Program-made: the position numbers and the translations under genes | In this document: piece after piece, positions 36,673 to 49,073 of the stretch | How positions within the stretch are numbered: position 1 is the first letter of the stretch | Layout: each line of letters opens with the position of its first letter | Notes under the pieces: generated by a model | What the model was told of the DNA's origin: nothing | Database searches by the model: none | The model's input: the letters and a program-made list of their open reading frames with translations, nothing else | DNA from: Chthonomonas calidirosea | GTDB taxonomy: Bacteria; Armatimonadota; Chthonomonadetes; Chthonomonadales; CAJBBX01 | Assembly: GCA_020722705.1 (NCBI GenBank) | Contig: DYKI01000001.1 | Span: 158,156-222,155, forward strand | Direction of reading: 5' to 3' | DNA length: 64,000 bases

Positions 36673-38004
36673 TCATTCGGCGCCCTCGGGCACAAGGTGT
36701 CCGAGGGCACCGTCGCCCTCGGCGACATCCAGATGCACCGACACAACCCGCCCAATCAGTGACCGAGGCCCCTGGAAGCGTACGCGAATGTAGTTGGGCG
36801 TGTACCCTGACAGGCCCTCGTGCCCCGCTCCCGGCTCAACCAGCACGTCCATGCAGCGGCCAAGGTACTGCCCCACATAGGCGGCCTGAGCCTGACGCGC
36901 CGCTTCGGCCATCTGTGCGGCTCGCTGCGATCGCACAACATCGGAGACGTGATCCGGATACATCGCGGCAGGCGTCGTAGGACGCTTGGAATACCTGAAC
37001 ACATGGGCCCTGGCAAAGCCGATTTCACGGACAAGGGCCAGCGTTTCTTCGTGCGCCTGGTCGGTTTCTCCAGGGAAGCCGACGAGGATGTCGGTCGTAA
37101 TGCCGAGATCGGGTATCGCCCGTCTGGCTCGAGCACAAAGGTCCGAGTACTGCTCGCGCGTGTACGGACGATTCATTGCACGGAGGACGGCATTGCTGCC
37201 GCTTTGAAGCGGCAGGTGCAGGTGGGCGCAGAACTGGGGCGCACTCGCCGCAACCGCAAGCAGGCGGTCAGTGACCTGGGTCGGTTCAATGGACGAAAGG
37301 CGAACGCGCGCGATGCCCGGGACGGCGCAGATGGCTGTGATGAGGTCAGCCAGACCTGCCGCACTGGGTCCTAGATCTCTCCCGTAGGCGCCGACCAGGA
37401 CACCCGTGACAACGATCTCCCGTCTGCCTTCCGCTGCAGCCTGTCTCACCTCGGCGACGATGTCATCCACGGGCCGCGAGCGAACCGCCCCGCGGGTCAG
37501 CGGCACGGAGCAGTATGTGCAGAACATGTCGCATCCGTCCTGCACCTTGACGAGCGCCCGAGTGCGTCCGGCGCCGGCGCCCGGCTGGTCCGTCGGGTCG
37601 CTCGTGGGGCCGGGTCGCAGATACGGGAAGCGCTCAACAACCGCAAGGGGCACGTCAAGCTTGGCCGCATTGGGTACGACCAGCGCGGCCTCGGGGAATG
37701 ACCGCCCAACGAGGCGTGCCATCTCAACGTCGCAGCCGGTCACCACGAGGACAGCCGATGGGCTGCGTCGAGCGAGCTTATGGATCATCTTGCGCGATTT
37801 CGCCTCGGCGGTGCAGGTGACCGAACACGTGTTGATGACGCAGACGTCCGCCTCGCACTCGCTGTCAACGATACGGAAGCCCAGTCGTTCGAATCCGCGA
37901 CGGATCCGATCCGTTTCGTACAGGTTGACCTTGCAGCCGAGTGTGGTCAGAGCTACGGTTGGAGCTGTACCCTCGGTCCCCGAGTCACGGTGAATCTGCG
38001 CCAC
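36673..38004 (-). CDS. mtaB: tRNA t6A37 methylthiotransferase (MtaB/MiaB family radical SAM)
   Basis: VALTTLGCKVNLYETDRIRRG, KVQDGCDMFCTYCSVPLTRG (CxxxCxxC), LHLPLQSGSNAVLRAMNR, TDILVGFPGETD. GTG start overlaps the upstream gene. Confidence 0.88.
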   Translation of the reverse strand: MAQIHRDSGTEGTAPTVALTTLGCKVNLYETDRIRRGFERLGFRIVDSECEADVCVINTCSVTCTAEAKSRKMIHKLARRSPSAVLVVTGCDVEMARLVGRSFPEAALVVPNAAKLDVPLAVVERFPYLRPGPTSDPTDQPGAGAGRTRALVKVQDGCDMFCTYCSVPLTRGAVRSRPVDDIVAEVRQAAAEGRREIVVTGVLVGAYGRDLGPSAAGLADLITAICAVPGIARVRLSSIEPTQVTDRLLAVAASAPQFCAHLHLPLQSGSNAVLRAMNRPYTREQYSDLCARARRAIPDLGITTDILVGFPGETDQAHEETLALVREIGFARAHVFRYSKRPTTPAAMYPDHVSDVVRSQRAAQMAEAARQAQAAYVGQYLGRCMDVLVEPGAGHEGLSGYTPNYIRVRFQGPRSLIGRVVSVHLDVAEGDGALGHLVPEGAE

Positions 38005-41000
38005 CGGAACTGCCTTCTGAGGAAGGCTTACGCCTTCCGCGGCCTCGGCCGCCTCGTCGCCGTCTGCGTTTGCGTTGGTCCGCAACCGTATCGGGATGCG
38101 ATGCTTCCGGCGCTGCCGGGGATACGTCCGAGGAAAGCGCGGCGGCCAGCTCTTCGCGCAGTTCAGCCACCGCCGCTCCCGGTTCATCGCCGGACGCCGG
38201 CGCGACGATGTCGGTTCGCTCCGCTATCACCAAGTCGGTTCCGGGCTTGGATTCGATCTCCTCAGCCGGCGATGGCACGCTCGCCACGGATCGCCGCGGC
38301 TGCGGCGGACTCGGCTCAGATGGAGTGACGCTCGGCCTGTGGCGGTTTGGATCAAAGCCGAGCTTTCGGATGGCCGCTGCGGTGCCAAAGTAGAACAATC
38401 GGCTGGTCTTCGCTCGGACTGGCGTGCGGTACTCCCGAGCGTCGGGCAAGGATGTGTATCCTTCGGCAAGGTCCAACAGGACAACCCCATCCGGTATTGT
38501 GAGGGTCCTCTGGCCATCCCGAAGCACGTGCATGGACAGCCATCCGTTACCCGCCTGTACATAGTCCTCCGGCGCCCGCGTGTACAGGTGAACGCCTGCG
38601 TAGCGGCACAGCCCCCTCAGCAGCTCCGGCGTCAACGATGGTTCCCCGCAGAACACGCTGTGCCATCCTTCAAAGGAACGAACGACAAGCGATGGCAGAC
38701 CAGTCTGCGCGTACTCGCCGAGGACCGTAATGCCCGGGCTGTCGTCGTCCACATAGAAGGAAGGGCTGAGTCGTTCCTTCGAGCCCAGGCTGCGCCCGTC
38801 GAGAGTCTGAACGATCGGATGGCCGGACACAATGATCCGCGTGCCGATCTCGCTGTTCCAAGGCTGAGGGCGCAAGCTGAGACCGACTGCGTCGGGAGTG
38901 GGCTCGTCGAGAGCAGACCGATCCGTCATCGAGCCGACGGCATACAGCCAGGCCAGCGTCCGTCCGGGAACCCTGAGCCGCTCCTTGACCGCATTCCGTT
39001 CCTCTTCGGACATCCGGTAAGGGTTAAGGAAGACGTAAAGCTTCGCCCCGGTCGGAAAGCTCTTCAGCAGCACGTCGCTCTGAAGGTAGAAGCCTACGGA
39101 TGCACCGCAGCGCAGGAGAGCATCACGACTGCCGCGGATGACCCGCTTGGCCAGCCCGTTGGCGTCAGCAACGTTGCACAGGCTTCGTTCGTCTATGAGC
39201 GCAACGACCTCCGGATCCTGAAAGCGCCGGGTCTTCTGGAACGCGCTCCACGACTCTCCAAACGAACGAATCTGGTTCCAGATCGTGTCCCCGTCGAGCC
39301 ATCCGTCACCCCACAGGTCCATCCATGCCACACCTGTCTGATGCGCCAGTGCGGTGCCGATGCCGCGGCCGTGGACACTCTCAGTGGCTGCTGCGTTCTC
39401 CATTCTCGGGTTGTAGGTGTCTCCGCTCTGAGACACAGGAGCCAGGTGCGTCTTGGTGTCGTCTTCGGATATCCACAACTTGCCGTGTGCTGCGACCGAA
39501 TCGACGGGTACAGGCAGCGCACCCGAGCATCCCGGTGCTCGATCCGAGTACGACAGGGGCCCCGAAAGGATATCAACGGCAGGTGATGCGAGAACTCGGG
39601 CCAGCGCCAGATGCCCTGACCAGGCATGCAAGAACTCCCAGGTGTAGCCGTAGCTGACCGAGACAAGTGCATTGCCGTCCGTCGCAGATTTCACGGCCTC
39701 TGCCAGAGCGAGGATGCGGTCAGCGGTGACATCAGACGTGTACTCCATGAAATCCACCCAACGACGTTCACGCCTCGGATCATAGAACGCCGCTCCTACT
39801 GACGAGGGAGGCTCCGGCGGTATGTTGGCAGTGAAGAACTGGACCGACCCATCGTACCAGGCGGCGCGCAAGGCGACCTCGCTGTCGTTGTACTTGGCGC
39901 GGAGCCATCTGCGGAAGCCTTCCCGATTGGCAAAGGATCGGTCGAAGCCGCCGTCGGCCGGTTGGAACCACTCTCCCCGCTCCAGGTGGTAACCAATGAT
40001 GCGCGCGCCGTAGCTCGTCCGCTGGACATGCTCGATCAGCAAGCGCAGCGACCGGACCGCTTCCGCCCAGAAATGCTCGGAGGCGATGGAGGGCTCATCA
40101 GTCGGCCCGGATTCAAGCGACTGCATCTCCCCTGGATACTGCGACTGCCACGCGGGCATTGGCTGGAAGACGATCCTTGGGATCATGTAAGCGTTGCGGT
40201 CGAAATCCGCCACCCGCTCGATCCGCTCGTCGAGCGCCTGATACACCGTATCGTCTGGAGGCATCGGGCAGACCAGTTCGACAAGCGTCGAGTAGACCTT
40301 GACGCCTGCCTGCGCGGCTCTCCGCATCTGGCTATGAACCCGCGCGACGGACGCATCTTCGCTGACGCTCCCAAAGAAGATGGAGGGCACAACTTCTTCG
40401 CCGTTGATCACCAGCTCGGGAAAGCCGCGGCGAATGGCCACGCGCGCCGTCGTCAGGGTCGGACCGGAGGACTTCGCCGGCTTCGATTCGCGCCGTCGGG
40501 GCGCGGCGGATCGGCCTGAGGGTTTGGCGGCCTTTGCGGTCTCTTCGGCGGTGGTGGCCTCTGCCGACGCGTCGGAAGGCTCAACTGAGCCACGGGGAGC
40601 TGCCTCTGGCTCCGCCTTGTCTGCCTTGGGCCCTCGTCTGCTGCCCTTCACGGCTCGCCGCGAGGCTGGAGCGGGCGTATGGGCCTCCTCCATCGAGCCT
40701 GGCGCTGGAACAGGCTCCGATTCGATCTCCGCATCTTCCGGCTTGACGACCCGTCCTTCTGTGCCGGCCTGATCAGCTATGTTCTCACGAGACGGTGCCG
40801 CCTTGCGAGGGCGACTCCGCCTTGAGCGCGAACGCTTGACGGGTTCCGGGGCGGCCGAATCTGAGGATTCAGCGGAGACCGGCGCTTCAGGAGACGGCAC
40901 AGCGTCTTGCGTGGATGGAGCAGGACTCTCCTGCGACGCTGCCTCCCGTTGGGATTTCGGGACAGTGCTTCGTCTTGATCGTCTGGAACGCGTGGAGGCC

Positions 41001-41113
41001 TTGCGTCGCTCGGCCCCTGGCTCGGACGGCCCATCGCCGGCCGGCGTCGTCGGATCCGCGGCCGTACCGGCAACGGCGACGTCGGCCGTATGCGGGGCCA
41101 ACTCGTCTGTCAT
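37985..41113 (-). CDS. Large protein: GH42/GH-A-like TIM-barrel core flanked by basic SR-rich N-terminal and RGG-rich C-terminal low-complexity tails
   Basis: Core: ARIIGYHLERGEWFQPADGGFDRSFANREGFRRWLRAKYNDSEVALRAAWYDG...LWISEDDTKTHLAP...GVAWMDLWGDGWLD. Tails: STRSRRSRRS, KRSRSRRSRPRK; C-terminal QRKRRRRRGGRGRGRRKPSSEG. No signal peptide. Confidence 0.7.
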   Translation of the reverse strand: MTDELAPHTADVAVAGTAADPTTPAGDGPSEPGAERRKASTRSRRSRRSTVPKSQREAASQESPAPSTQDAVPSPEAPVSAESSDSAAPEPVKRSRSRRSRPRKAAPSRENIADQAGTEGRVVKPEDAEIESEPVPAPGSMEEAHTPAPASRRAVKGSRRGPKADKAEPEAAPRGSVEPSDASAEATTAEETAKAAKPSGRSAAPRRRESKPAKSSGPTLTTARVAIRRGFPELVINGEEVVPSIFFGSVSEDASVARVHSQMRRAAQAGVKVYSTLVELVCPMPPDDTVYQALDERIERVADFDRNAYMIPRIVFQPMPAWQSQYPGEMQSLESGPTDEPSIASEHFWAEAVRSLRLLIEHVQRTSYGARIIGYHLERGEWFQPADGGFDRSFANREGFRRWLRAKYNDSEVALRAAWYDGSVQFFTANIPPEPPSSVGAAFYDPRRERRWVDFMEYTSDVTADRILALAEAVKSATDGNALVSVSYGYTWEFLHAWSGHLALARVLASPAVDILSGPLSYSDRAPGCSGALPVPVDSVAAHGKLWISEDDTKTHLAPVSQSGDTYNPRMENAAATESVHGRGIGTALAHQTGVAWMDLWGDGWLDGDTIWNQIRSFGESWSAFQKTRRFQDPEVVALIDERSLCNVADANGLAKRVIRGSRDALLRCGASVGFYLQSDVLLKSFPTGAKLYVFLNPYRMSEEERNAVKERLRVPGRTLAWLYAVGSMTDRSALDEPTPDAVGLSLRPQPWNSEIGTRIIVSGHPIVQTLDGRSLGSKERLSPSFYVDDDSPGITVLGEYAQTGLPSLVVRSFEGWHSVFCGEPSLTPELLRGLCRYAGVHLYTRAPEDYVQAGNGWLSMHVLRDGQRTLTIPDGVVLLDLAEGYTSLPDAREYRTPVRAKTSRLFYFGTAAAIRKLGFDPNRHRPSVTPSEPSPPQPRRSVASVPSPAEEIESKPGTDLVIAERTDIVAPASGDEPGAAVAELREELAAALSSDVSPAAPEASHPDTVADQRKRRRRRGGRGRGRRKPSSEGSSGGADSP

Positions 41114-41239: not shown

Positions 41240-42319
41240 CTAACGCTTGGCCAAGTCCACGACGGTCAGCGTCAGCTCAACCCTGTTCCGACTGGCTATC
41301 AGGAGAGGGTTGTACAGAAAAGGCCGCTTCGGATCCCACAGGCCGGCGCGCTCGATCGCACGCTCTGCCGCCGGGTTCCGTCCGGGCCTCACATCTTGCT
41401 CTGCGTAGGCAAGGACCGTGATCACCTGATCGTTCAGCGGATGGCCCTTGTCAACGACGAACCTGCACTCGTATCGGTCACCGCCTACCGGATCGAGGCC
41501 GAACATCTTGCCGGTTCTGGAGTTTCGCGCGACAAGGACGACCGGCGTGCGCGGCTCAGGCGGCTTCCGAAACGTCACTGAGATCGTGACCTCGCCGCCA
41601 CGCTCCACGATGCCGGGTGTGATCCGCGCCTCCGTGAACGTCAGGTAGTCGGAGCCTATGCTGGAAGCTCCCGGTGTCGCCGCATCCGTGAGTCGAACCG
41701 GGTCGAGCCACGCCACGATGGCGCGTTCGTTGCGACCATTGGCGCTGTACACCTCTTCCTGCATCCAGTACACTCTGCCGAGCGCGACCGCATCGTTATG
41801 GCGGTCCGACACAACCTTGATGGCCAGCACCCCCGGAGAGGTCCGCTTCAGGCTTCCGCGCCGCATGCCGGTACCCGTGACGATATCAACGATGCTGCTC
41901 GCGATCCCAACGGCGGCGCCGATGCCGGCCTTCGTCCAGGGGTCCGAAGTGGTCGCCAGGGAACTTGCGGCGCGAAGGCCCGCTTTGAGTGGCCCGGAGG
42001 CGAGGTTGCCGCCAAAGCCAACGAGTGAGTTGACGCTGCGTGACACGGTGTGCAGGAAGCCGCCCTTTCGACGCGTCAGATTCAGCGCACTGCGTGGAAT
42101 GGTGATAGTGTACTCACCGTTCTGATCTGTTCGAACGTAATCAACAACCCTGTTCTTGGCGTCGTATACGGCAACAGTGGCGTTCGGAACCGGTCGCCCG
42201 CCCACATCCGTGACTCGCCCCGTCGCCCACACGAACTCCTCGGCGCAGGCCGAGCACGTCATGACAAGCGAAAGTGCGGCCAAGAAAAAGGTCCGCGATC
42301 TGAATGGAAGCAATATCAT
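41240..42319 (-). CDS. Secreted protein with N-terminal carboxypeptidase-regulatory/CnaB-like domain
   Basis: Signal peptide MILLPFRSRTFFLAALSLVMTCSACAEE; WATGRVTDVGGRPVPNATVAVYDAKNRVVDYVRTDQNGEYTITIP. The longer ORF upstream reads through the tRNA and is rejected. Confidence 0.65.
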   Translation of the reverse strand: MILLPFRSRTFFLAALSLVMTCSACAEEFVWATGRVTDVGGRPVPNATVAVYDAKNRVVDYVRTDQNGEYTITIPRSALNLTRRKGGFLHTVSRSVNSLVGFGGNLASGPLKAGLRAASSLATTSDPWTKAGIGAAVGIASSIVDIVTGTGMRRGSLKRTSPGVLAIKVVSDRHNDAVALGRVYWMQEEVYSANGRNERAIVAWLDPVRLTDAATPGASSIGSDYLTFTEARITPGIVERGGEVTISVTFRKPPEPRTPVVLVARNSRTGKMFGLDPVGGDRYECRFVVDKGHPLNDQVITVLAYAEQDVRPGRNPAAERAIERAGLWDPKRPFLYNPLLIASRNRVELTLTVVDLAKR

Positions 42320-42391
42320 CAGGAGTTCCGACGTCTCGGGGTCAAGCGGGGTTACGGACCATAGCCGACCTATGCAGACCCCGTGACACCA

Positions 42392-42416
42392 CAAGGGTCC
42401 CGTAAGCGGACCCTTG
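42392..42416 (-). terminator. Hairpin downstream of the tRNA (terminator candidate)
   Basis: CAAGGGTCC-N7-GGACCCTTG, 9-bp perfect stem. Confidence 0.5.
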
Positions 42417-42427
42417 AAAGGACGGAG

Positions 42428-42501
42428 TAGCGGGAGAGGGACTCGAACCCTCGACCTAACGATTATGAGCCGTTCGCTCTGACCGACTGAGCTATCCCGC
42501 C
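42428..42501 (-). tRNA. tRNA with CAU anticodon (elongator tRNA-Met, or tRNA-Ile2)
   Basis: GGCGGGATAGCTCAGTCGGTCAGAGCGAACGGCTCATAATCGTTAGGTCGAGGGTTCGAGTCCCTCTCCCGCTA folds as a cloverleaf; anticodon loop CTCATAA; CCA not encoded. Confidence 0.93.
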
Positions 42502-42511
42502 GGAACAGCCT

Positions 42512-42541
42512 ATTATACTGGCAGCGCGCTGTGGGTGTCAA
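42512..42541 (-). promoter_or_regulatory. Consensus sigma70 promoter for the tRNA
   Basis: Minus strand TTGACA-N18-TATAAT, -10 ending 10 nt before the tRNA 5' end. Confidence 0.85.
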
Positions 42542-42603
42542 ACAGCATCGGCGGTGCGACCTCTGCATCGCACCGCCGACGTCTGCTAGCTGCTCGCAAG
42601 CCC

Positions 42604-43134
42604 TTATTTCTTGAGCGGGCAGTTGGGGTTGGGTCCCGAACCGTCTCTCAATCGGAGTCCGTTCCCGCGCATGCCGCCCCGGCCATAGCCGAAACCACAT
42701 CCCCCCATGCGAGAACCGGTGCCGTCGCACACACCGTACGGAGCAGGGATCCCCATCTCACGGATAAGCTTCTCATTTGCCGTCGTCAGTTTGGAGAGCT
42801 CTGCTCGATGAGCGGCAATGGCCTGCTCACGCTTGGCAATCTCAGCCGGCGCACCGCCCTTCGCCTTCAGATCAGCGATCTCCCAGTTCAGCTTACGGAT
42901 ACTCGCGTGCAGGTCGGTCACCGACCGGACGAAAGCCGTCTGCTCCGGCGTGGTCGGGTTGACACGTGCCCACCAGCCTCCGGCTCCGCGGCCCATACCC
43001 TGGCCCATTCCCGCACCGTAACGCGGTCCTCCAAGAGCCAGTCCACACCGTCCACGCCCCTGTCCAACAGCAGGCAGGGCGATCACAACTGCGAGCGATG
43101 CAGCGGCTGCGGCCGCCATCAGTCCTTTTCTCAT
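42604..43134 (-). CDS. Spy/CpxP/ZraP-like periplasmic protein
   Basis: Signal peptide; Gly/Met-rich GPRYGAGMGQGMGRGAGG; helical NPTTPEQTAFVRSVTDLHASIRKLNWEIADLKAKGGAPAEIAKREQAIAAHRAELSKL; Cys/Gly-rich tail. SD AAGGAGG. Confidence 0.72.
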   Translation of the reverse strand: MRKGLMAAAAAASLAVVIALPAVGQGRGRCGLALGGPRYGAGMGQGMGRGAGGWWARVNPTTPEQTAFVRSVTDLHASIRKLNWEIADLKAKGGAPAEIAKREQAIAAHRAELSKLTTANEKLIREMGIPAPYGVCDGTGSRMGGCGFGYGRGGMRGNGLRLRDGSGPNPNCPLKK

Positions 43135-45477: not shown

Positions 45478-45726
45478 TCAGGACGCCGAGTGCGGCGGCA
45501 GGTTCCCGCCCGCGCCGGCGGTTTCTGTTGTGCCGCAGCGGCATTGCGTGCCCATTCTCTCCAGCAGCGACTTCATGGGACACCAATCAGTGAAAGCCGA
45601 CTGGAAGAGGTTCAGGCCCACAAACGCCGTGAAGTAAAGCCATCGAATATCAACGAATGCCGCGAGGGCTGCCGTGCCGACGACGAAAACGCCCGCAATC
45701 AGTCGCAGCCAACGTTCGGTTGTCAT
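45478..45726 (-). CDS. Small DUF2892-like inner-membrane protein
   Basis: [60 protein letters not shown] overlap with the RND gene. Confidence 0.75.
45482..45506 (-). promoter_or_regulatory. Putative ECF sigma promoter upstream of the ECF sigma gene
   Basis: Minus strand GGAAC-N16-CGTC (gGGAACCTGCCGCCGCACTCGGCGTCCTGAG); the -10 plus downstream CGTCCTGAG is identical to the site at 43188-43212. Confidence 0.65.
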
Positions 45727-48700
45727 GTTGTTTCTCCTTCGCATGTGGGTGCCGGATGATGTTGCGCGCGCATTGGCCTTCCATGTTCGTCACGCCCGTG
45801 CGGAGCGAACTGCGCCAGATTGCGCTCCCGGCTCCGCATCATGTAATACAGCACCGGAACGGCAATGCGCGACAGGAGGGTCGAAGCGATCTCACCTGCC
45901 ATGAGCGAGATTGCGAGACCCTGGAAGATGGGATCGAACAGGATCACGAATGATCCCACAATCACAGCGGCTGCCGTCAGCAGCATCGGTCGGAACCGGG
46001 TCGCACCCGCATCAATCACGGCTTGCTCCAGCGCCATGCCTTGACGCAAACGGAGCTCGATGAAATCCACCAGAATGATCGAGTTCCGTACGATGATGCC
46101 GGCGCCGGCGATGAACCCGATCATCGAGGTGGCCGTAAAGAACGCGCCCATCATGGCGTGAGCCGGCAGGATGCCGACAAGCGTCAGCGGAATGGGCGCC
46201 ATGATGATCAGCGGGGTCCGAAACGATTGGAACCAGGCGACCACCAGAATGTAGATCAGAACCAGCACGGCGGCAAATGCGATGCCGAGATCGCGGAACA
46301 CCTCATAGGAGATGTGCCACTCTCCGTCCCATTTCATGGCGGCCTCGTCCTGCGTAAACGGAAGATGCGTCGTCAGAACCTCCAGCTTGCCGTCTTCTGG
46401 AAGATCGAGCTTCGCAATCGCCTTGTTCATTGCGAGGATGGCGTAGACAGGGCTCTCTTGACGCCCGACGACGTCGCCGGTGACGTAGACAACCGGCATC
46501 AGATTCTTGTGGTAGATGGACCTCTCCGCCTCGATCTCGACCGGTCTCACGAGTTCACTGAGGGGAACCTCGCTGCCCGATCCCGAGGTTACGCGTATCT
46601 GTTGCAGCTCACTGAGACCGCTCCGTTCGGCGCGTGACATCCGCAACGTGATGGGCACATCCTCGCGGGATTGCTCGTCGTGGGCAAGTCCCACCCGCAT
46701 GCCGCGCAATGCCATCGTCAACGCTCGATTTGCCGCTCCTGCATCAACGCCGGCCAGAGCCGCTTTCTCCTTGTCCACCTCGAAGCTGACCGTCGGGCGC
46801 TCATCGTCCATGTACCAGTCTACATCAGCGACGCCGTCCGTGCTCTCGAACACCCTCTTGACCTGAGAGGCGACGCGTGCTCGGGCCTCTTCGGACGGGC
46901 CGTAGACCTCGGCAACGAGCGTCTGAAGCACGGGCGGACCCGGCGGCACCTCGGCGACTTTGACCCGAACCCCATGCTCCCGAGCGATCCGAGCGATATC
47001 GGGTCTGATGCGGCGAACGATGTCGTGGCTCTGAGCTTTCCGTTCATGCTTGCCGATCAGGTTGACCTGAATGTCCGCCTGATAGCTCTGACGCCGCATG
47101 AAGTAGTGCCGCACAAGCCCGTTGAAGTTGAACGGACTGGCCGTGCCGACATAGACCTGATAGTCGGTGACCTCCTGAATGCCCCCGATGTACTCGGCAA
47201 GCGAACGCGTGGCCGCGGCGGTTTGCTCCAGCGACGTGCCCGTTGGCATGTCAACGATGATCTGGAACTCGTTCTTGTTGTCGAATGGCAGCATCTTGAC
47301 CGTGACGACACGCGCGGCAACGAGCCCCATGGCGCCGAGCAGCAAGACGGCAACACTTCCGAGGAAAGCCCACCTCACTGGCCATCGCTGCAGCAGCGGG
47401 GTCATCACCTTCTTGTACACCCGGGTCATCCAGTCGTCCCGGTAGTCGTGGCCCGAACCATGATCGCCCGAGCCGCCTGTGTGTCCATGCTGGCCACGCG
47501 CTTCCTTCAGGATGCGCACGGCAGCCCACGGCGTCACGATAAACGCGATCAGGAGAGAGAAGATCATGGCGGCCGACGCTCCGACGGGTATCGGGCGCAT
47601 ATACGGTCCCATCAGTCCACCCACGTAAGCCATGGGCAGGATGGCCGCGATGACGGTAAACGTCGCCAGGATCGTCGGGTTGCCAACCTCGTCAACCGCA
47701 GCAATGGCAGTCTGCAGAGCGCTGCGACCGTGCGCGCCGGGCAACCGATAATGCCTGACGATGTTCTCGACCACCACGATGGCATCGTCAACCAGAATGC
47801 CGATCGAGAAGATCAGAGCGAAGAGCGTGATCCGGTTCAGCGTGTAGCCGTACAGGTAGAACACCAGGAGAGTAAGCGCCAGCGTTACGGGGATGGCAAC
47901 AAGAACGACGATCGACTCCCTTCGGCCGAGAGTCAGCGCGATCAGGATGGTCACTGAAACGACCGCGATCATCATGTGGTAGAGCAGCTCGTTCGACTTC
48001 TCCGCGGCGGTCTCGCCGTAGTTCCGCGTCACGGTCATGCTGACGTCGGCGGGTATGAGTGTGCCCCGCAGCCCCTCGGCCTTCTTGATCACCGCATGCG
48101 CAAGGTCTATGGCGTTCGTCCCCTGGCGCTTGGCAACGGAGATCGTGACAGCCTGCTCGAGGGTGTCCTCGCCGCGAGTCTCGCTCTCGCCCTTTTCGCC
48201 GACTTTGCCTTCAGCCTCGCCATAGGCTGGACCACGGCCGAAGAACACGTAGTCCTGGGCCTCGGCTGGTCCGTCGCGCACATCCGCCACATCACGCAGC
48301 CGGATTGAACGGCCATTGCGCACGCCGACGACAACCGCCCCGACGTCGTCGGCGTTCCGCAGGAAGGACCCGGACTTCACGGCGACAGAGACCTCTCCCT
48401 TGCCGAACTCGCCGGAGTCGGAGCGCACGTTCGCGCCGCCGAGCGCGGCCGCCACCTGATCGGCGCTCAGGCCGAAGCCGGCCAATCTCGCTCTGTCGAG
48501 CGTCGCCGTGATCTCACGTCTGCGTCCACCGATGATCATCGTCTCCGAGACGTTGTCCACCTGCTTGATCTGTTCCTCGAGCCGATCAGCGATCTGCCGG
48601 AGTTCCAGGCTGCCCAGCGTGCGGCTATGGAGGGTCAGCGCCAGGACGGGAACGTCATCAATCGAACGCGGCTTGATGATCGGCAGCGACGCTCCGGGCG

Positions 48701-49073
48701 GGATGATGTCATAGTGCGACTGCAGCTTTTCCCGCAGCCGAACGAACGCTGCCTCCTGATTTTGTCCGACCAGAAACCGGACAACGGCCATGGATGATCC
48801 GGGGCTGCTCGTCGTGTACACGTACTCGACGCCCGGTATCTCCCAGATCAGTTTCTCCATTGGCGTTGTCACGCGCCGCTCGACCTCTCTGGCCGATGCG
48901 CCGGGCATCTCGACCAGCACATCAGCCATCGGGACGATGATCTGGGGCTCCTCCTCACGCGGAGTGCGCATCACCGCGAACGTGCCAAGAGCCAGCGACG
49001 CAATGATAATCAACGGCGTAAGCTTGCTGCCGACGAATGCCGCCGCCAGACGTCCTGCGAGTCCGAAGCGCAT
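45723..49073 (-). CDS. RND efflux pump inner-membrane transporter (AcrB/CzcA superfamily)
   Basis: About 1,116 aa; [26 protein letters not shown]; two large periplasmic loops; TM repeats; next to MFP gene. Confidence 0.93.

Follow-up and report, generated by a model that had tools for sequence, protein, structure and literature searches.

The window, that is the whole stretch of 64,000 nucleotides of Chthonomonas calidirosea DNA that was analysed, carries on the minus strand an open reading frame of 1042 aa, running from 41113 down to 37985 (stop codon at 37985–37987), whose product is a GH42-like protein with long tails at both ends. The sequence-only reading had given these coordinates exactly, without the strand, and every motif that it had quoted was found in the translation (SRRSRRS, KRSRSRRSRPRK, GYHLERGEWFQ, FRRWLRAKYND, KLWISEDDTKTHL, WMDLWGDGW and RKRRRRRGGRGRGRRK). 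The plus-strand frame is broken by stops, and the antisense open reading frames on that strand resemble GC-rich frame artefacts. The ATG of the tailed gene is preceded by a good ribosome-binding site, with AGGAG upstream (gccAGGAGaacaacATG; gccAGGAGaacaac). The product was divided into an N-terminal tail (residues 1–218; 40460–41113, minus), a GH42-like core (residues 219–905; 38399–40459, minus) and a C-terminal tail (residues 906–1042; 37988–38398, minus), the disorder of the tails being judged from composition, without a disorder predictor.

Among the 31 genomes of the class that were searched, 29 gave an ortholog, matching at an E of 1e-170 or better and with a long open frame; the identities are 40–65%, with apparently one tailed copy per genome. 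The other two are G015, which is 64% complete, and G012, which holds a paralog only. The search of genome contigs returned one Chthonomonadales MAG only, with close relatives only, and no relative was found in viral contigs. To judge from the close relative L001, the genome is one of the Chthonomonadales (Armatimonadota).

At its 3' end the gene adjoins mtaB (36673–38004, minus), for the tRNA t6A methylthiotransferase (TIGR01579, 382.6 bits, cut-off 357), and on the upstream side a gene for a carboxypeptidase-regulatory-like domain protein (41240–42730, minus; PF13620; family F3), whose start is uncertain; neither is part of the system. The overlap of 20 nt between mtaB and the tailed gene, reported previously, holds if the GTG at 38004 is the mtaB start, other starts being possible. 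The supposition that mtaB is a meaningful neighbour was not supported: the two genes are adjacent in 7 of 12 family-f1 genomes, this one included, and in none of the f2 and f3 loci examined, so that the adjacency, confined to part of f1, says nothing general about function, and mtaB was rejected as a functional partner. In the f1 genomes with the mtaB link, the carboxypeptidase-regulatory-like gene precedes the tailed gene; other f1 genomes have different neighbours, G006 and G007 for instance having a gene for a YfhO-like membrane protein there. Many f2 genomes place the gene between yceD-plsX-fabH-fabD-fabG-acpP-fabF, upstream, and a DUF2092/LolA-like gene and metK, downstream. Thus, the neighbours vary by family and indicate no consistent functional link. 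The f2 gene follows fabF, a frequent place of rnc, and the replacement of RNase III was considered and rejected, since rnc, wherever found, lies on another contig or, in the single-contig genome G018, far away.

Some further features of this region were observed. MtaB, taken over 36673–38187 (minus), is above the NCBIfam cut-off, and its C-terminal TRAM domain is below that of Pfam. A Gly/Met-rich small protein (42604–43134, minus) has by eye a Spy/CpxP-type exported look, with no Pfam match above cut-off. The segment 43255–45446 (minus) encodes, again by eye, a sigma-70-type sigma factor, a small cysteine-containing anti-sigma-like protein and an RseB-like protein with a GRGRGAGPHRFGRRAG insertion; this cassette adjoins an RND-type transporter (45723–49073; identity by eye), and parts of it recur in G008, G009 and G010.

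The core and its candidate catalytic residues

In single-sequence searches the window protein matched no family above cut-off, PF02449 included, and gave only a marginal GH42 match among known structures. When the family profile was compared to PDB, the top structures were GH42 beta-galactosidases, the best being 6y2k (E 4.4e-5). Up to an E of 0.1, PF02449 was matched by 17 of the 25 family cores, the best at 4e-9, and there was no Pfam match of the trimerisation domain PF08532 in the family cores. The genome also encodes a canonical GH42, L066 (PF02449 E 3.6e-137), to which hhalign aligned the core with a probability of 92.9, beginning in the barrel and continuing into the second domain. Residues 219–905 are thus predicted to comprise a TIM barrel and, after it, a part that matches the second (trimerisation) domain of GH42, and the resemblance to GH42/GH-A enzymes proposed from the letters of the sequence was supported by these profile comparisons. 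An AlphaFold model built from the window and L001 sequences (pLDDT 34.2) was too poor for fold searches. No match to the RNase E/G catalytic domain PF10150 was found in the whole-protein Pfam scan.

In GH42 the catalytic nucleophile is a glutamate located after strand 7, and an Asn-Glu pair at the end of strand 4 provides the acid/base. In the hhalign alignment, with which MAFFT agrees, the KLWISEDD motif of the window protein lies opposite NIWVMEEQ of L066, placing E550 (39464–39466, minus) on the GH42 nucleophile; this position is Glu in 23 of 23 tailed orthologs aligned. The candidate acid/base is E381 (39971–39973, minus) of the GEW motif, invariant in all aligned tailed orthologs and present in most paralogs. 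It is found in the loop after strand 4, in the acid/base place, where the window sequence LERGEW lacks the preceding Asn and its exact alignment with the Asn-Glu pair of GH42 is uncertain. On these grounds the core is GH42-like (clan GH-A) and probably catalytic, a putative rather than an established member of GH42 itself.

Composition and conservation of the tails

The N-terminal tail of the window protein is rich in Ala, Pro, Glu and Ser (19% Ala, 13% Pro, 20% Ser+Thr), with Arg/Lys (37 residues) close to Asp/Glu (33) and with basic SR/RR patches. It contains no signal peptide, in agreement with the previous reading, the most hydrophobic 15-residue stretch averaging only +0.86 on the Kyte-Doolittle scale. 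The basic patches are 4, compared to 0.88 in shuffled sequences, none of 400 shuffles being as high, and the charge segregation is well above that of the shuffles (z = 4.8). The C-terminal tail, which ends in RKRRRRRGGRGRGRR, is segregated to a similar degree (z 4.7), and arginine-rich/RGG short motifs are present in both tails.

The same features were observed across the class. The start could be read in 27 orthologs, and every one of these has a signal-free N-terminal tail, of about 170–385 residues, made of Ala/Pro/Glu/Ser spacers and Arg/Lys patches; for 25 of them no more than 3 of 400 shuffles reached the patch count, and the charge segregation of the ortholog tails gave z from 4.8 to 10.1. 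At the other end, the sequence R(4-7)GGR[GS][RK], in the window protein RKRRRRRGGRGRGRRK (residues 1014–1029; 38027–38074, minus), is kept in 25 of the 28 C-termini that could be read. The exceptions are the two f3 genomes, G029 and G030, in which it is absent, and G028, with a degraded form, which means that it is not essential everywhere. The tails are thus beyond chance, and the orthologs keep both of them. In the 24 aligned copies of the motif each Arg position uses five or six codons with the residue invariant, and only one glycine varies, being replaced by Ser in three sister genomes. This codon pattern indicates that selection acts on the motif peptide, within a linker whose remaining sequence drifts freely.

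This conservation bears on an alternative explanation, in which the protein would be an ordinary glycosidase acting inside the cell on imported oligosaccharides, its tails serving for solubility, clustering or localisation (for example in condensates or on other anionic polymers), with no specific role towards nucleic acids. The two candidate catalytic glutamates retained in the core, the abundance of GH42-like genes in this genome (15 matches) and the mixed, not purely basic, charge of the tails are all consistent with it; on the other hand, the canonical GH42 L066 has no such tails, and a general solubility tail would not need every residue of R4GGRGR to be preserved while the codons change synonymously. 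We consider it rather unlikely, though to be kept in mind.

The possibility that the tails are a lineage-wide low-complexity expansion, raised beforehand as an objection, was ruled out by the rarity of the arginine motif, in a test that covered only motifs of the R3-4GGRG type. In fact, the tailed gene holds the genome's only R4GGRGR, the shorter RRRGGRG DNA pattern is about as frequent across the class as its reversed control, and in the 905 kb of DNA examined the motif is limited to the tailed family and to one 125-aa frame.

Within the tails themselves, L009 (of G011) has three extra RRRRGGRG[RK] motifs in its N-terminal tail, and G020, G026 and G027 have one similar arginine motif each, which suggests that the motif is re-used. 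In several genomes, the C-terminal tails of f2 (e.g., L022 and L021) also hold a second conserved motif, D[LI]ETL[RE]AVL, at 45–55 residues before the RGG motif, possibly an amphipathic helix, which may be a partner-binding site.

As for the ligand, the arginine/SR/RGG composition also suits DNA, polyphosphate, anionic membrane or protein partners. A DNA- or nucleoid-binding protein, whose tails would resemble the basic Ala/Pro extensions found in some histone-like proteins of bacteria, would fit N-terminal tails rich in Ala, Pro, Lys and Arg; RGG-type motifs and SR runs are, however, more usual in RNA-binding proteins, and no DNA-related neighbours were found at the loci examined, making this role very improbable.

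Exported paralogs and the origin of the tailed family

The class holds many GH42-like paralogs, mostly of 28–37% identity. Among the 24 that were read, most have a signal-peptide-like or Tat-like N-terminus, a few starts being unclear, and basic tails are absent from all. A maximum-likelihood tree of the cores, which is unrooted, separates the 27 tailed proteins from the paralogs by a branch with 100/100 support. The simplest history, as far as an unrooted tree can indicate, would be that the export signal was replaced by a tail once.

Since the related paralogs are mostly exported, it might be asked whether the tailed protein is exported as well, its start being mispredicted, or the tails a frame artefact, and left untranslated. 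This appears close to negligible: the ATG has a good Shine-Dalgarno sequence, the N-terminal tail hides no hydrophobic stretch fit for a signal peptide, the tails are conserved as protein in 27 orthologs, and the synonymous codons of the C-terminal motif point to translation of that end. The misplaced start that the sequence-only reading had named as a risk to its own proposal was therefore not found.

A possible arginine-mediated tether and comparison with known systems

The explanation that we prefer, to which we give an even chance, is that a formerly secreted glycosidase is now cytoplasmic and is held to RNA, or to another polyanion, by multivalent arginine motifs. In this mechanism, a GH42-like protein of clan GH-A shares its ancestry with a set of exported glycosidases of the class; its signal peptide would have been replaced by a tail with several basic patches, and its C-terminal linker bears the conserved RRRRGGRGR motif. 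The protein would then stay in the cytoplasm, where the tails would tether it to RNA or a ribonucleoprotein (less likely to DNA or another polyanion), as the arginine motifs of RNase E do, and the barrel, which keeps both candidate catalytic glutamates, would act on a cytoplasmic glycoside. We infer the location, the polyanion binding and the enzymatic activity from sequence features, and the binding to RNA, in particular, from the composition of the tails and from the analogy with the tail of RNase E.

A different role for the same architecture would be mainly that of a scaffold: the protein would be a hub associated with the degradosome or the ribosome, its tails recruiting RNA and partner proteins and its glycosidase-like core serving as a structural base that may oligomerise. 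The near-universal, housekeeping-like presence of the gene would be in line with this, as would the RNase E/G of this genome, which is encoded by a separate gene and is short (596 aa), without a scaffold tail, an observation that also favours the tether preferred above. Nevertheless, the candidate catalytic residues are retained, as in an enzyme, and no conserved RNA-decay neighbourhood was found, rnc being on another contig or distant wherever both genes were located; we regard such a mainly structural hub as doubtful. More speculative than the tethered glycosidase preferred here, and unlikely in our opinion, is a class-wide cytoplasmic glycosidase that acts on RNA or ribonucleoproteins, or while bound to them: it might trim sugar from RNA-linked or ribonucleoprotein-linked glycoconjugates or, with a sugar-sensing barrel, serve an assembly for RNA decay, or one associated with the ribosome, as its arginine-motif scaffold.

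A glycosidase fold of the exported type was apparently recruited to the cytoplasm by swapping its signal peptide for arginine-rich tails, and apparently a single tailed copy was kept in nearly all the sampled members of the class. In the case in which the tails bind RNA, this would be a link between an enzyme and a ribonucleoprotein in bacteria for which we found no described counterpart. The RRRRGGRGR peptide would then offer a ready handle for finding the partner.

No described family with a tailed GH42-like architecture was found by the family scans or by a limited search of the open-licence full-text literature, in accordance with the sequence-only reading. Compared to GH42 (PF02449 and PF08532; 6y2k, 4oif, 1kwg), the tailed protein is similar over the barrel, matches weakly into the second domain and has a nucleophile motif that aligns, whereas the window protein is below the Pfam cut-off and has GEW instead of NE at the acid/base motif; L066, the canonical GH42 encoded alongside it in this genome, differs also by the lack of such tails. 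The exported paralogs (e.g., L003/L070, G000:C60) show about 33% identity in the core and have the GEWF and KLWxxEDD motifs in common with the tailed protein, but mostly begin with a signal or Tat-like N-terminus, carry no basic tails, are patchily present and fall in separate clades.

The closest parallel for the tails is the C-terminal scaffold of RNase E. In Pseudomonas aeruginosa, redundant arginine-rich motifs in the disordered region of RNase E mediate RNA binding and the formation of foci, and the same region also has an AEPV-rich part (PMC11964227). The tailed protein has no RNase E catalytic domain, its tails flank a glycosidase-like barrel, and no homology is claimed. What the two have in common is a long disordered region with Ala/Glu/Pro-rich spacers and several arginine-rich short motifs, and the tails described here may follow the principle of the RNase E scaffold as an analogy of working.
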